Translations under genes and position numbers: made by a program
The notes under the pieces: model-generated
Told to the model about the DNA's origin: nothing
Databases searched by the model: none
The model's input: the letters and a program-made list of their open reading frames with translations, nothing else
Source of the DNA: Verrucomicrobiota bacterium
Lineage (GTDB): Bacteria; Verrucomicrobiota; Verrucomicrobiia; Chthoniobacterales; UBA10450
Length of the DNA stretch: 51,349 nt
Direction: 5' to 3'
NCBI GenBank assembly: GCA_003219465.1
Contig: QHOX01000060.1
Coordinates: forward strand, 1 to 51,349
Shown here: positions 42,475 to 48,488 of the stretch, piece by piece
Position numbering within the stretch: position 1 is the stretch's first letter
Layout of the letters: each line of letters starts with the position of its first letter

Positions 42475-42990
42475 ATGTCGGCCATGAATGCATTCTCGAA
42501 CTCTGTTGAAACATTGCTTGGCTTGGGCGTGGAGCCAAAGGATTTGACGTTCGTTCAAGTCTCGCTGCGTGGGATCATCGTCTTCCTTGTCACACTGATC
42601 ACAGTGCGGCTCGGGCACAAACGTTCACTCTCAAGGAAAACTCCGTTCGACGCCGTCCTGCTTGTCATTCTTGCCGCAGTACTTTCCCGCGCCATCAACG
42701 GCTCGGCAGCATTTTTCGCGACGCTCGGCGGAGGCGTGGTTTTGGTGCTGGTCCATCGCCTGTTCGCATTTCTGACATTCTATTCCCATGGATTTGGAAT
42801 GTTGGTCAAAGGCAAGCCCGATGTCATTGTGCGCGATGGACAATGCGATGTAGTCATGATGCGGCGCAACCACGTCTCAACGCATGATCTGGACGAAGAC
42901 ATGCGTCTTAGCGCTCACACCGACGACGTTTCGGAGATCGGCGTTGCGCGTGTCGAACGCAGTGGCGACATCAGCTTCATCAAAAAATAA
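42475..42990 (+). CDS. DUF421-like membrane protein (YetF/YcaP type)
   Basis: Two to three membrane segments in the first half (SLRGIIVFLVTLITVRL, FDAVLLVILAAVLSRAI, VVLVLVHRLFAFLTFYS) are followed by GMLVKGKPDVIVRDGQCDV, and LDEDMRLSAHTDDVSEIGVA near the end. This is the order of DUF421 proteins. Start at 42475 or 42484 cannot be decided. It lies upstream of pqqA but with no overlap. Confidence 0.8.
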   Translation: MSAMNAFSNSVETLLGLGVEPKDLTFVQVSLRGIIVFLVTLITVRLGHKRSLSRKTPFDAVLLVILAAVLSRAINGSAAFFATLGGGVVLVLVHRLFAFLTFYSHGFGMLVKGKPDVIVRDGQCDVVMMRRNHVSTHDLDEDMRLSAHTDDVSEIGVARVERSGDISFIKK

Positions 42991-43033: not shown

Positions 43034-43123
43034 ATGAGGCGCAACAAAAAGCGATGGATTAAGCCGACACTCAAAACAGTGCCGATCTTTTTTGAGTGCA
43101 CCTGTTACGCGGGGGCGATCTGA
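43034..43123 (+). CDS. pqqA: PQQ precursor peptide PqqA (29 aa)
   Basis: The peptide ends with WIKPTLKTVPIFFECTCYAG. PqqA peptides typically have WxKP near the start and ExTxY near the end; the Glu and Tyr in ECTCY are the residues that become cross-linked to form the PQQ skeleton. The two Cys flanking Thr are unusual. It lies 30 bases before pqqB. The ATG at 43034 follows GGGTGGGACTT, a good ribosome site; an upstream in-frame ATG (43016) would add six residues. Too short for usual gene callers. Confidence 0.85.
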   Translation: MRRNKKRWIKPTLKTVPIFFECTCYAGAI

Positions 43124-43153: not shown

Positions 43154-44002
43154 TTGATTCGCATCCAAATTCTCGGCAGCGCGGCCGGCGGCGGTTTGCC
43201 CCAGTGGAATTGCGCGTGCGCAAACTGTGTCGCGGCGCGAACGGGGAAAATTGAAGCGCAAACTCAATCCAGCATCGCGATCAGCGCCGACTCGGAAGAA
43301 TTTCAGAACTGTTGGTTAATAAACGCCTCGCCTGATCTGCCACGGCAAATCGAAAACACGACGCGATTGCAACCGCGCCGCGATGCATCGCGCAATACTC
43401 CGATCGCGGGCGTTCTTTTGACTAATGCAGATATCGATCATGCACTGGGCTTGTTGCTCCTGCGCCAACAGGAGAAGCCGCTTGTCGTTTACGCTGCGGA
43501 TGAAACCCGAGCTATGCTCGCGTGGCTTGACCGCACTCTTGCGCGGTTCTGCGGAATCGAATGGCGGAAGATCAGTTCGACTTTTCAATCATTGGACAGC
43601 AGTCTCGGGTTTCGCGCGATTGAATTGGCGCATAGCGTCGCGTTTCAGTTTCTGGACCAAGCATCGGGCCGGTTGGCGCTAGTCGCACCAGCGGTTAGCG
43701 AGCTTACCCGCGAATTGTCGGAAGCGTCCGCCGGCTCCGACGTGATTTTGTTCGACGGCACATTCTGGAGTGACCATGAACTTGCTTGCGTCCGGGCCGG
43801 CGCTCGCAGAGCGCGAGAGATGAATCATCTGCCCGTCAGCAGTGGCAGCCTGAACTTCTTGCGCCAATCGCCGGCACGCCGGAAGATTTACACGCATGTT
43901 AACAACACAAACCCGATTTTCATGCCCGGCTCTCCAGAACGTGTAGAACTCGAGCAGGCTGGCATCGAAGTCGCGCGGGATGGACTAGAGATCGTTCTAT
44001 GA
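43154..44002 (+). CDS. pqqB: PqqB, PQQ biosynthesis hydroxylase
   Basis: Metallo-beta-lactamase-fold protein that acts on the PQQ precursor. The N-terminus IRIQILGSAAGGGLPQWNCA with CAC..C is the family signature. Other parts are VLLTNADIDHALGLLLLRQ, ILFDGTFWSDHEL, REMNHLPVSSGS and IYTHVNNTNPIF. The only fitting start is TTG at 43154, since the fold begins at once and no ATG precedes it; it may limit expression. The stop overlaps pqqC by 4 bases (ATGA). Confidence 0.93.
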   Translation: MIRIQILGSAAGGGLPQWNCACANCVAARTGKIEAQTQSSIAISADSEEFQNCWLINASPDLPRQIENTTRLQPRRDASRNTPIAGVLLTNADIDHALGLLLLRQQEKPLVVYAADETRAMLAWLDRTLARFCGIEWRKISSTFQSLDSSLGFRAIELAHSVAFQFLDQASGRLALVAPAVSELTRELSEASAGSDVILFDGTFWSDHELACVRAGARRAREMNHLPVSSGSLNFLRQSPARRKIYTHVNNTNPIFMPGSPERVELEQAGIEVARDGLEIVL

Positions 44003-44790
44003 CCACTGAGCTTTGGGACCGCGAAACCTTTGTCGAAAAATTACGCACGATCGGCGTGCGCGCTTATCACGATAAACATCCGTTCCATATCGCGATGAAC
44101 GAAGGCCGCCTTTCGCAGGAATCGGTGCGCGGCTGGGTCGCAAATCGGTTCTACTATCAGCAAAACATTCCGATTAAAGACGCCGCGATTCTAGCCAACT
44201 GCCCGGTGCGCCAAGTGCGACAGGCGTGGATTCATCGCATTCTGGACCACGACGGGGTTTCGTCCGGGGCCGTAGAGTCCACTGTCCTCAGCGGAGAATC
44301 CGCGGCGCCTCATGCGCCGAGGACAGCGCACACTACAGCAAACGAAGGCGGCGTCGAAGCGTGGCTCCGACTGGGTGAAGCGTGCGGGTTATCGCGGGAG
44401 GAGCTACTGGATAATCGCCATCTGTTGCCCGGAATGCGATTCGCCGTGGATGCCTACGTGAATTTTGCGCGCAGTCAGCCCTGGCCGATCGCCATCGCGT
44501 CTTCGCTAACCGAGCTTTTTGCGCCAGAGCTGATGTCTGCACGGCTTGCAGCCTTCGAAAAGTTTTATTCGTGGATCGACGCTCGCGGTCTTGATTATTT
44601 CCGCCGGCGAGTCACGCAGGCGCGGCGCGATTCTGACGACGCGCTTGCGATTACCTTGGAATATTGCGACACGCCCGCGCTTCAGCGGCAAGCCGTACGC
44701 GCGCTCGAGTTCAAATGCGATGTGCTCTGGTCCATGCTCGACGCAATTCATCACGCCTATGGCGGTTTGGAGATCGCCGCTCCTGCTTAA
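43999..44790 (+). CDS. pqqC: PqqC, pyrroloquinoline-quinone synthase, with in-frame repeat insertion
   Basis: Oxidase that makes the final ring closure and eight-electron oxidation in PQQ synthesis, cofactor-free and cytoplasmic. The N-terminal part YHDKHPFHIAMNEGRLSQES, then GWVANRFYYQQNIPIKDAAI and RILDHDG, is typical. In relatives, DHDG is followed within about five residues by GGxEAWLRLGEA. Here residues 91-114 (from repeat 44269-44339) lie between them, about 25 extra residues. The reading frame is kept and the rest (FAVDAYVNFARSQPWPIAIA, TLEYCDTPALQRQAVRALEF) is intact, so the protein may still fold with a surface loop. Confidence 0.93.
   Translation: MTTELWDRETFVEKLRTIGVRAYHDKHPFHIAMNEGRLSQESVRGWVANRFYYQQNIPIKDAAILANCPVRQVRQAWIHRILDHDGVSSGAVESTVLSGESAAPHAPRTAHTTANEGGVEAWLRLGEACGLSREELLDNRHLLPGMRFAVDAYVNFARSQPWPIAIASSLTELFAPELMSARLAAFEKFYSWIDARGLDYFRRRVTQARRDSDDALAITLEYCDTPALQRQAVRALEFKCDVLWSMLDAIHHAYGGLEIAAPA
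44269..44339. repeat. palindromic repeat, family A, inside pqqC
   Basis: The arms GCCGTAGAGTCCACTGTCC and GGACAGCGCACACTACAGC pair with several mismatches. The element is 71 bases long and belongs to the same family as those at 35110, 41425 and 45156. It is read as protein in the phase giving VESTVLSGES...HTTA. Confidence 0.9.
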
Positions 44791-45075
44791 ATGCGCGCCA
44801 CGACAATTTCTGATTTGGCTCGGCCGAGCCTGGCGAAGGGCGTTCGGTTACAAATCGATTCTGCCACGGGCAAAAGCGTGCTGCTTTACCCCGAAGGCAT
44901 TGTCGAACTAAACGAAACCGCGCACGAAATTCTTTCCCGCTGCGACGGACGAACACTGGGCGAGATCGTTTACGAATTGGCCGAAGAATATGAGGCGGAC
45001 TCTAACGCGCTCGCCGCGGATGTACGCGATACGCTCTCGGATTTGCAGCGTCGAAAGCTGGTCAAACTGACATGA
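44791..45075 (+). CDS. pqqD: PqqD, PqqA peptide chaperone
   Basis: Small protein that binds PqqA and hands it to PqqE. RPSLAKGVRLQIDSATGKSV, LLYPEGIVELNETAHEIL and CDGRTLGEIVYELAEEY are the usual parts. It starts directly after the pqqC stop (TAAATG) and its stop overlaps the pqqE start by 4 bases (ATGA at 45072-45075). Confidence 0.94.
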   Translation: MRATTISDLARPSLAKGVRLQIDSATGKSVLLYPEGIVELNETAHEILSRCDGRTLGEIVYELAEEYEADSNALAADVRDTLSDLQRRKLVKLT

Positions 45076-46241
45076 GAGTGCCGCGACCATACGCATTGCT
45101 CGCGGAGATAACGTACCAGTGTCCACTGCACTGCCCGTATTGCTCAAACCCTGTGACTGTAAAGTCCGCTGTCCCCAGCGGAGAACATATTGGGCCCACT
45201 GCGCTGAGGGCAGCGCACACTACAGCAGGCAACGGCGAGCTCACGACGGAAGAATGGCAACGTGTCATTCGCGAGGCCGCTGCGCTTGGCGTTCTGCAAA
45301 TCGGCTTTTCCGGAGGCGAACCACTTGCTCGGCGCGATCTCGTCGAACTGATTCGCGCGGCGCGTGAGGCAAAGCTTTACACGAACCTCATCACCAGCGG
45401 CATCGGTGTTGATCACGATCGCGTGCGCATGTTGCGCGATGCTGGATTAGATTCGATCCAATTAAGTTTTCAGTCAGATAGATCAAGCCTGGCGGACGAA
45501 ATCGCCGGCGTGCGTGCGCATGACCGTAAGCTTGATGTCGCTGCGAAAATTCGCGCAGCGGGAATTCCGCTGAGCCTCAATTTCGTGATTCACAGGCGGA
45601 ACATCGATCGACTGCCGCAAATGATTGACCTGACGGAAGCCCTGGGCGCCGAGAGAGTCGAGTTGGCGAACGTGCAGTTCTACGGTTGGGCGTTTCGCAA
45701 TCGTGCAGCGTTGCTCCCCACACGTGAGCAAGTGGACCGGGCACGCGACGTCGCGACCACAGCTAAAGCGCGGCTCGCGGGCAAGATCGCCATCTTTTAT
45801 GTGTTTCCGGACTACTACGAAGCTCGCCCTAAACCCTGTCTTAACGGGTGGGGACAACGATATCTCACCGTCAATCCAATCGGCGACGTCCTTCCCTGCC
45901 CAACCGCGTCATCTGCGATTCCGGATTTGCGTTTTGAAAACGTGCGGGAGAGCGCGCTCGATTGGATTTGGCAGGAATCGGAAAGCTTCAACCGGTTTCG
46001 CGGAACCGAATGGATGCCCGAGCCGTGCCGGAGTTGTCCGCAGCGGGAAATCGATTTTGGCGGGTGCCGTTGTCAGGCTGCGTTGCTGACCGGAACCGCC
46101 GCGAACACCGACCCGGTTTGCGAATTCTCACCAAATCGCGCAGTCGTGGACGCTGTGCTGCACGACATCAATTCCTCAAGCGAGCATATGCGTGAGTGGA
46201 CATATCGTACTAACCCATCCGCGTCGCCTATTTCGGTTTAG
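45072..46241 (+). CDS. pqqE: PqqE, radical SAM peptide cyclase, with in-frame repeat insertion
   Basis: Radical SAM/SPASM enzyme that links Glu and Tyr of PqqA. The SAM cluster motif is C17PLHC21PYC24 and the SAM-binding GFSGGEP follows. The C-terminal SPASM part has LNGWGQRYLTVNPIGDVLPC, CRSCPQREIDFGGCRCQA and later Cys residues. Between SNP (after Cys24) and ELTTEEW a repeat (45156-45226) adds about 20 residues that relatives do not have, close to the active-site loop. The reading frame is open throughout, which suggests it is tolerated. Confidence 0.94.
   Translation: MRVPRPYALLAEITYQCPLHCPYCSNPVTVKSAVPSGEHIGPTALRAAHTTAGNGELTTEEWQRVIREAAALGVLQIGFSGGEPLARRDLVELIRAAREAKLYTNLITSGIGVDHDRVRMLRDAGLDSIQLSFQSDRSSLADEIAGVRAHDRKLDVAAKIRAAGIPLSLNFVIHRRNIDRLPQMIDLTEALGAERVELANVQFYGWAFRNRAALLPTREQVDRARDVATTAKARLAGKIAIFYVFPDYYEARPKPCLNGWGQRYLTVNPIGDVLPCPTASSAIPDLRFENVRESALDWIWQESESFNRFRGTEWMPEPCRSCPQREIDFGGCRCQAALLTGTAANTDPVCEFSPNRAVVDAVLHDINSSSEHMREWTYRTNPSASPISV
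45156..45226. repeat. palindromic repeat, family A, inside pqqE
   Basis: The arms ACTGTAAAGTCCGCTGTCC and GGGCAGCGCACACTACAGC pair imperfectly. Length is 71 bases, as in pqqC. It is read in the same phase and orientation as in pqqC, giving VKSAVPSGEH...HTTA. Confidence 0.9.
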
Positions 46242-46465: not shown

Positions 46466-48199
46466 TCAATATCTCAAAGTTCGACGATCGCCTCTGCGGC
46501 TCTGCGTATGGCGTCGGGCGCGACGCCGGCGCGTGGCGCGGCCAGGCGCGTCGCTACGGCGTGGGACGCGGTGCTGGCGTAAACCCCCGGCGTGTGGCCA
46601 GCAGGCGGCGTGGCCGTCGGTTGCGGGCGTGGCGCGTGTCGGCCTAGGCCAAGGAGTGCCAGTCATCCCCCCAGTAGTGCTCGGGATCACCGGCCGCGGC
46701 GCCGGTGTAGGACGTGGCCTCGGCGTGACGGCGGGCCTTGTTCCTGTTGGCAGCTTAAATGCATACACTTTGTTATCGGCAGCGAAGTAAATCCGACCAC
46801 GAGCAGCTATCCCGGTGTTCCACTGGCGGGTGCCTGTCATCAACTCGTTAGCGCCGCCGCCTGCATAGATCACAGCGCCGGTATCGCCATCGTACGCATG
46901 CAAGCGCTGGTCGCCTGCAACACCGGCCACCCAGACAATAAAATTGGTCGCCCCATTAGTCGTAACCCAGGGCGAGCCGCGGCCGGTCTGACTCATGCTC
47001 CAAGCGAAAGTTATGGTGGGTGGATTTGTCGGAGTAATTTTGTAGGCCCTGATCGCGTTGGCCTCGTTATGAAACGCGAAATAAGTTCCCTGGCTGGTGT
47101 GGTACGTGACAGCTGACGTTCCTCTGTTAATACCAGAGACACCAGCCTGGGCCACGGGTGAAGTCACACCGCCGAGATTGTTGCGATCAACCAGGTAGGC
47201 ATTCGAATCTTTGCCGAGGGCAAGGACCAACTGCGAAGGCGTAGCTCCGGGCACATCGATCACGGTGGCGCTGACACCGCCCAGATCGATGTCGCCTTCG
47301 TCGAGATTAATCCAGTTGGTGGGCGCCCAAAAATCGCTAAAGACCGGCCCGGCTTGCAGCCGTATGATTGCTTCGCCACCCATCCAATTACCGCCGGTGT
47401 TAAATGTGTTGCCGGTGACCACGAACATGTTCGTGCCATCACTGGCGACGCCGCCGTGCCCCCAAATCCCGCCGCCGACAGCTATTGTGGCCCAGGCAAG
47501 AACGTTAGTTGGGCTATTGATATCGACGCCGACAACCCAGCCATGATAAGTCTCGCAGTCACCCGAGTAGCCGGAGTAGGACACATACACGATCCCGTCC
47601 ACAAGGGCCAGTGCCCCGCGTTCTTCCTGTATCCGGGACTCAAAGGTCATGCCGTTGTAGTTGGCGGTCGCATTGACATCCACGGGCCAGCCCAGGTTCG
47701 TTTCGCCGGTGTCCACGTCCAACGAGTAAATGAAATGTTTTATGGTTGCGCCATTGATCAGCGCGTCGAAGAAAAGTCGCCGAGAGGCGAGCTCGACAAC
47801 AGGCGTGCCGGTGATGCCTACGGGATTAATGTTGCTGCAGGGAAGGCTGGAGCTCGGCACTGACGGTCCGATGTCTGATCGCTGCCAAATCACTGTCCCC
47901 GTCGTGGCATCAAGCGCGTAAACGTTGTTCGATTCGGTCACGGCGATGATCATCGGTCCATTCGGACCGCCCTCGATGTAAAGTGGCTGGGCGTAAACAT
48001 TGCCGGAGATCGTGCCGTCGAAGTTGAGATCGCGGGTCAGGTTGGCAACGGCATCAGGCGTAAAGACCGGATCGATGTAAACGCCGTCGCGGGAGGGATT
48101 GTTGTGCTCCTGCGTGACGTTCACCTGCGCACTTGTTCGCGGCACCACAATGCACGGGCTGGCAATGAGAATTGCGAGAATGGAAATAGAACACCTCAT
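46466..48199 (-). CDS. secreted PQQ-type beta-propeller protein, C-terminal frame unsure
   Basis: Start at 48199 gives a signal peptide (MRCSISILAILIASPCIVV...SAQ). The mature protein has the repeats of PQQ-like propellers: NVYAQPLYIEGG, NVYALDATTGTVIWQRSDIG, GGVASDGTNMFVVTGNTFNT, LVLALGKDSNAYLVDRNN and GRIYFAADNKVYAFKLPTG. No haem motif is seen. Whether it binds PQQ or only has the fold is open, although a pqq operon lies next to it. The tail is Pro/Arg-rich (PRPRPTPAPRP), and after about base 46680 the reading looks unnatural; another frame gives FTPAPRPTP and a stop, so a late indel is likely. Confidence 0.82.
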   Translation of the reverse strand: MRCSISILAILIASPCIVVPRTSAQVNVTQEHNNPSRDGVYIDPVFTPDAVANLTRDLNFDGTISGNVYAQPLYIEGGPNGPMIIAVTESNNVYALDATTGTVIWQRSDIGPSVPSSSLPCSNINPVGITGTPVVELASRRLFFDALINGATIKHFIYSLDVDTGETNLGWPVDVNATANYNGMTFESRIQEERGALALVDGIVYVSYSGYSGDCETYHGWVVGVDINSPTNVLAWATIAVGGGIWGHGGVASDGTNMFVVTGNTFNTGGNWMGGEAIIRLQAGPVFSDFWAPTNWINLDEGDIDLGGVSATVIDVPGATPSQLVLALGKDSNAYLVDRNNLGGVTSPVAQAGVSGINRGTSAVTYHTSQGTYFAFHNEANAIRAYKITPTNPPTITFAWSMSQTGRGSPWVTTNGATNFIVWVAGVAGDQRLHAYDGDTGAVIYAGGGANELMTGTRQWNTGIAARGRIYFAADNKVYAFKLPTGTRPAVTPRPRPTPAPRPVIPSTTGGMTGTPWPRPTRATPATDGHAACWPHAGGLRQHRVPRRSDAPGRATRRRRARRHTQSRRGDRRTLRY

Positions 48200-48488
48200 A
48201 CGTCCGCCACCGGGTTGCTCCCGGATTCCTTCTACAACAGCACGCCGGTTCTCTGTCAAGGCATTACGCCAGCAAGGCCCTGGCAGAAGAATTGTCAGTT
48301 TCTGGAGAGCGCACGGGCCTCATCGCGTCTCGCGTGCTGGTGCAGCTTGTCCTGAGGGAAGCCGAAGGAGCGTCACCCCGAAACGACCTTTCAGATATGC
48401 TTCACTACACCATGCGCTTTTGAATATTAGAAGAGTCCCCGATCGCAAGGATGCCATTACCGACACGCGATACGCGTGCGCTAGCCAA

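Follow-up and report, generated by a model that had tools for sequence, protein, structure and literature searches.

The precursor peptide PqqA is described, in the available part of PMC2294125, as a peptide of about 23-39 residues with a Glu-x-x-x-Tyr motif, and all carbon and nitrogen atoms of PQQ come from this Glu and this Tyr, between which a three-residue linker is located. For this motif a beta-strand with Glu and Tyr on one side is proposed (PMC2294125). The maturase PqqE is a radical SAM/SPASM enzyme, whose QxYxW motif is reported as unique to PqqE and near AuxI in the accessible part of PMC10906245. Cys268 and Cys323 of PqqE are placed at AuxI, and among SPASM enzymes there are auxiliary clusters that have a site open to substrate (PMC5715301, available in part).

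The window analyzed here is the whole stretch of 51,349 nucleotides from contig QHOX01000060.1 (assembly GCA_003219465.1), and its host genus is Candidatus Udaeobacter. We regard it as very probable that a 29-residue peptide encoded in this window is the PQQ precursor PqqA of a species of Ca. Udaeobacter, and that its Cys-Thr-Cys linker makes it a form specific to this lineage.

The pqq operon and its probable precursor gene

The features of the locus are as follows.
42484 to 42990, + strand: DUF421/YetF-like gene, upstream context of pqqA (PF04239, 35.5 bits, cut-off 23.6)
43034 to 43123, + strand: very probable pqqA, 29-residue PQQ precursor peptide and stop (open reading frame, 27 conserved genus copies)
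43094 to 43108, + strand: codons of the ECTCY core (Glu21-Cys22-Thr23-Cys24-Tyr25)
43154 to 44002, + strand: pqqB, TTG start (TIGR02108, 294.1 bits, cut-off 245)
43999 to 44790, + strand: pqqC, carrying a REP-like insert in frame at about 44272-44340 (TIGR02111, 309.6 bits, cut-off 240)
44791 to 45075, + strand: pqqD (TIGR03859, 81.1 bits, cut-off 46)
45072 to 46241, + strand: pqqE, radical SAM/SPASM maturase, carrying a REP-like insert in frame at about 45159-45227 (TIGR02109, 503.6 bits, cut-off 381.35)

The operon order pqqA-B-C-D-E is intact, and PqqB, PqqC, PqqD and PqqE each score above their NCBIfam equivalog cut-offs. A preliminary description had placed an easily missed pqqA, with WIKP and ExTxY in PqqA spacing, between the DUF421 gene and pqqB, and this is borne out by the operon, by conservation, by the spacing and by a PqqE with all motifs. 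The reading frame starts 43 bp past the DUF421/YetF-like gene, ends 30 bp before pqqB and translates to MRRNKKRWIKPTLKTVPIFFECTCYAGAI, in which W8-I-K-P11 is followed by E21-C-T-C-Y25. The distance from W to E is 13 residues, the value also seen in the PqqAs read from other groups, and the Glu-x-x-x-Tyr motif within 29 residues agrees with both length and motif of PqqA. The pattern WxKP-9-ECTxY matched once in the window vs no match in 100 shuffles.

The peptide is matched by neither the NCBIfam nor the Pfam PqqA model, and the same holds for all Cys-Thr-Cys peptides tested; the TIGR02107 cut-off of 20 bits is a detection threshold and marks neither a chemical nor a genetic trait. Among the non-CTC PqqAs tested on this model, only that of genome G347 fell below the cut-off (18.5 bits). 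A second pqqA was not found in the window's genome (G000, assembly 88.8% complete): the motif search gave one match, and TIGR02107, run over the genome up to E 10, gave two matches, both elsewhere and below the cut-off (12.9 and 11.1 bits), so that this candidate explanation was rejected. A PDB search with the peptide returned a single match, NDUFA3, at E 0.15.

Most copies in the genus retain the tail of the DUF421 gene ahead of pqqA, and the two may perhaps share one transcript. While Udaeobacter has a single operon, pqqAB and pqqCDE of Chthoniobacter flavus (locus L116) lie divergently on opposite strands. The in-frame inserts in pqqC and pqqE are palindromic repeats of about 65-70 bp that are related to each other; at their ends they read GTAG..., resembling GTAG-REP pairs, and with 40 candidates scored, 33 matches were obtained in the genome. 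In many genus members these two loops, which follow DHDG in PqqC and CPYCSNP in PqqE, also have in-frame inserts, but of differing sequence, and loci L087, L183, L116 and L182 are without inserts there. REPs inside genes are already known (PMC3733652, available in part).

Conservation and spread of the Cys-Thr-Cys linker

Within the genus, 27 pqqA copies match with E values of at most 2e-11 and are distributed over 25 of the 35 genomes, with weak matches above E 1e-10 not counted as pqqA. Glu21, Cys22, Thr23, Tyr25, Ala26 and Gly27 are present in all 27 copies and Cys24 in 26, and the Cys codons show synonymous variation only, save for one change to Phe (C24F). Conservation of both cysteines, which the preliminary description had proposed to check, is thereby supported for the genus, and the Glu/Tyr pair is retained in each of its 27 copies. 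Pooled over all pairs of the 27 rows, including L079 and L088 with their non-homologous first codons, pN/pS is 0.118 (pN 0.057, pS 0.48). PqqC is above its cut-off in 18 of the 35 genomes, several of which are incomplete or have contig ends within the operon.

Two CTC copies of pqqA, L193:919 (genome G020) and L194:8448 (G022), have no pqqB-E on their contigs, and their neighbors are unrelated by Pfam; G020 contains a complete pqqA-E operon besides its solo copy. Genome G030 possesses two full pqq operons, one with ECTCY and one with ECTFY (L195, L196).

A profile search of the order with the peptide (E 0.01) matched 34 of 213 genomes. Of these, 25 belong to the genus and three (G522, G544, G562) to other genera of its family; the others are C. 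flavus (G439, with the same peptide as L116), four members of family f6, and G424. The last of these (E 0.008) was dropped as pqqA, its locus L192 having neither pqq genes nor a motif peptide, and in a further peptide search only the matches of G000 and G347 were counted as pqqA. The CTC linker occurs in the genus, in the three genomes from other genera of the family and in C. flavus, i.e. both cysteines are kept in four genomes of four genera beyond the window's own; the f6 genomes have EVSLY.

Genome contigs were also scanned for the exact pattern W..P-9 residues-ECTCY, a scan that covered only linkers with both Cys and the Thr, in this one spacing. It found 44 loci, 29 of which encode a PqqA-like peptide. 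Every one of these 29 is labelled Verrucomicrobia, Spartobacteria, Chthoniobacterales, Chthoniobacter or Udaeobacter, and the cultured Chthoniobacter flavus Ellin428 is among them. The fetched stretch contains pqqB at 26 of the 29; of the others, L114 and L132 are copies that lack pqqB, and L117 is cut by the stretch (L074, from the same place, has pqqB). The remaining 15 of the 44 loci are non-Verrucomicrobia, are not PqqA-like and show no pqq gene nearby within the stretch fetched, and a Cys pair spread across many phyla was therefore rejected.

That C-T-C is unusual, as had been supposed, is supported by 21 other PqqA records (11 plasmid, six f9, four f6), none of which has a Cys between Glu and Tyr. 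The linkers of the plasmid records, from which L150, L152 and L158 were left out as they have no motif peptide, are EVTMY, EITRY, EINAY, EVTLY, EINMY and EITMY, and within the phylum they are EVTAY/EVTTY in the six f9 genomes and EVSLY in the four f6 genomes. Outside the linker but close to the core, a Cys is common in these PqqAs (CAMEITRY, LCMEVTAY, ECGMEINMY, EINAYAC), and hence Cys in PqqA is not new, only its place is. Among the matches listed, no description of a PqqA with linker cysteines was found in the open-access literature, none of the matches listed for the letters ECTCY concerns PqqA by its title, and PMC7343977 on Udaeobacter does not mention PQQ. Judged by the sequences compared, a single lineage has the Cys-Thr-Cys linker as a fixed trait.

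Could the Cys pair simply be a neutral historical accident of this order, in which a tolerant linker has kept its cysteines through short divergence and small target size? The wide variation of the linker elsewhere (EVTMY, EITRY, EINAY, EVSLY, EVTAY) and the one Cys24Phe copy would fit such a history. However, the 12-position C-terminal core is almost unchanged in spite of many synonymous differences, and CTC persists as far as C. flavus, with a PqqB that shares only 50% identity with that of the window. We therefore consider neutrality possible but rather unlikely.

PqqE and the role of the cysteines

For the lineage-specific PqqA that we favor, we infer the reactions, their product and what the cysteines do as follows. 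The peptide most likely functions as an ordinary PqqA, in which Glu and Tyr would be joined by PqqE and the Cys linker discarded. As in the known pathway, PqqD would hold the N-terminal half, which is basic and contains WIKP, PqqE would link the side chain of Glu21 to the ring of Tyr25, proteases would remove the flanks together with the three-residue linker, and PqqB and PqqC would complete PQQ. As all carbon and nitrogen of PQQ comes from Glu and Tyr, both cysteines would be lost from the product, and they most likely matter only within the surface that is recognized by PqqE, perhaps also by the protease. The beta-strand geometry (PMC2294125, available in part) would put both of them on the face opposite to Glu, Thr and Tyr. 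In the simplest view, the linker would be fitted to its own PqqE in an otherwise normal PqqA, and soil bacteria related to Udaeobacter probably make PQQ from this peptide.

The PqqE of the window aligns to the M. extorquens PqqE 6c8v (E 5e-104) with CX3CX2C, GGEP, QxYxW and the SPASM cysteines all present, and the PqqE Cys columns of the CTC rows are conserved in 15/15 to 19/19 rows, with two columns at 18/19. In the PqqE tree (SH-aLRT support), the CTC rows are united with the ECTFY row L087 (86), and their neighbors are the EVSLY rows (99); L087 itself groups with L090 and L183 (98). From this place inside the CTC group it follows that CTC is older there and Phe24 a later change. If the ECTFY operon, which looks intact, is functional, the second cysteine (Cys24) would be dispensable.

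In the CTC rows, 165 PqqE columns are invariant, and seven of these mark CTC vs other rows; columns with fewer than eight CTC or nine other rows were skipped, one other row sharing the CTC letter was allowed, and L081, L088 and L184, with no or partial pqqB-E, were left out. The PqqE of L087 departs at four of the 165 columns, two of the seven CTC-marking ones and two of the 158 others (hypergeometric 0.009, or 0.017 when pooled over PqqB-E, in a test that was post hoc and concerns one event). The two CTC-marking changes are H20R, inside CX3CX2C (CPLHC), and P277Q, directly after the Cys that aligns to the AuxI ligand Cys268 (numbering in our own count, 6c8v minus 10). L090, the nearest CTC operon to L087, keeps His20 and Pro277; it adjoins L084, which encodes a CTC peptide, and with 131 of 132 overlap bases identical, the two contigs are halves of one operon. 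The PqqE change at two Fe-S-adjacent positions together with ECTFY may hint at a co-evolution of peptide and enzyme, seen post hoc in one event.

It is conceivable that the cysteines themselves act in maturation, as a disulfide or metal clamp giving the linker its shape, as a transient ligand or electron/hydrogen donor near the AuxI cluster of PqqE, or as a second modification site; the precursor would then be processed in another way than standard PqqA, with PQQ still being made. The conservation of both cysteines within and beyond the genus, the enrichment of the L087 changes at CTC-marking columns, the unchanged His and Pro in the L084/L090 operon, and the open substrate sites at SPASM auxiliary clusters (PMC5715301, available in part) are all in line with such a role. 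Against it stand the single loss event and the post hoc test, the occurrence of Pro277 in a Streptomyces PqqE with an EVTMY peptide and of His20 in one EVSLY (f6) row, i.e. outside the clade, the seemingly intact ECTFY operon, and the fact that the known pathway discards every linker residue. Such a chemistry is doubtful, and it likewise appears improbable that the Chthoniobacterales evolved a PqqA in which the Cys-x-Cys functions in the PqqE step itself (as a redox or metal clamp, or an AuxI contact), with matching PqqE changes beside the radical-SAM motif and the AuxI ligand.

The reading as PqqA is weakened by the following observations: the PqqA models miss the peptide, no clear PQQ user was found in G000, where the PQQ alcohol dehydrogenase TIGR03075 is absent, and two copies lack pqqB. 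TIGR03075 is above its cut-off in two of the 35 genus genomes, and GSDH (PF07995) occurs in 21 of 35, but also in six of 14 controls. A beta-propeller protein (46466-48259, - strand) is convergent with pqqE and scores just under the cut-offs of PQQ_2 (27.3 vs 27.6) and PQQ (24.5 vs 26.7).

These same points (the failure of the models, the absence of obvious PQQ users in G000 and the two solo copies without pqqB-E) could be taken to indicate that a PqqE-like enzyme turns the peptide into another RiPP instead of PQQ. This is very improbable, since PqqB, PqqC, PqqD and PqqE all exceed equivalog cut-offs, the Glu/Tyr spacing is exact, and PqqC has no other role than PQQ ring closure. A chance reading frame, suggested by the shortness of the frame and the lack of a model match, can be dismissed in view of the pN/pS over 27 copies, the fixed place before pqqB and the absence of matches in 100 shuffles.

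Relation to known PqqA peptides

The Udaeobacter-related lineage is among the most abundant lineages in soil, and the PQQ precursor of this lineage is invisible to the usual models, so that its PQQ capacity may be scored as lacking pqqA. Together with their matching PqqEs, the ECTCY, ECTFY and EVSLY peptides constitute a natural set of linker variants for the question of how PqqE reads the Glu-Tyr linker, and a linker variant is available in a cultured strain (C. flavus). As far as the peptides compared here go, the novelty is the place of the Cys pair, between the two reacting residues, as PqqA itself is known.

With the TIGR02107 PqqAs of the Rahnella, Acinetobacter, Sinorhizobium and Azospirillum plasmid operons, the peptide shares the W..P motif, the 13-residue distance from W to E, the E-x-x-x-Y motif and the position before pqqB, but their linkers are V-T-M, I-T-R, I-N-A, V-T-L, I-N-M or I-T-M, whereas that of the window peptide is C-T-C and is not recognized by the model. 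The f9 PqqAs, from genomes that we take to be Methylacidiphilum-like, are verrucomicrobial and also lie before pqqB, but they have MEVTAY or MEVTTY and score above the TIGR02107 cut-off. The PqqAs of the sister family f6 (G347, G466-G468) share xIPxFFE, the Y-A/S core and the operon order with the window, and the G347 peptide, the one just below the TIGR02107 cut-off, is 43% identical to the window peptide; they differ in their EVSLY, which has no Cys.
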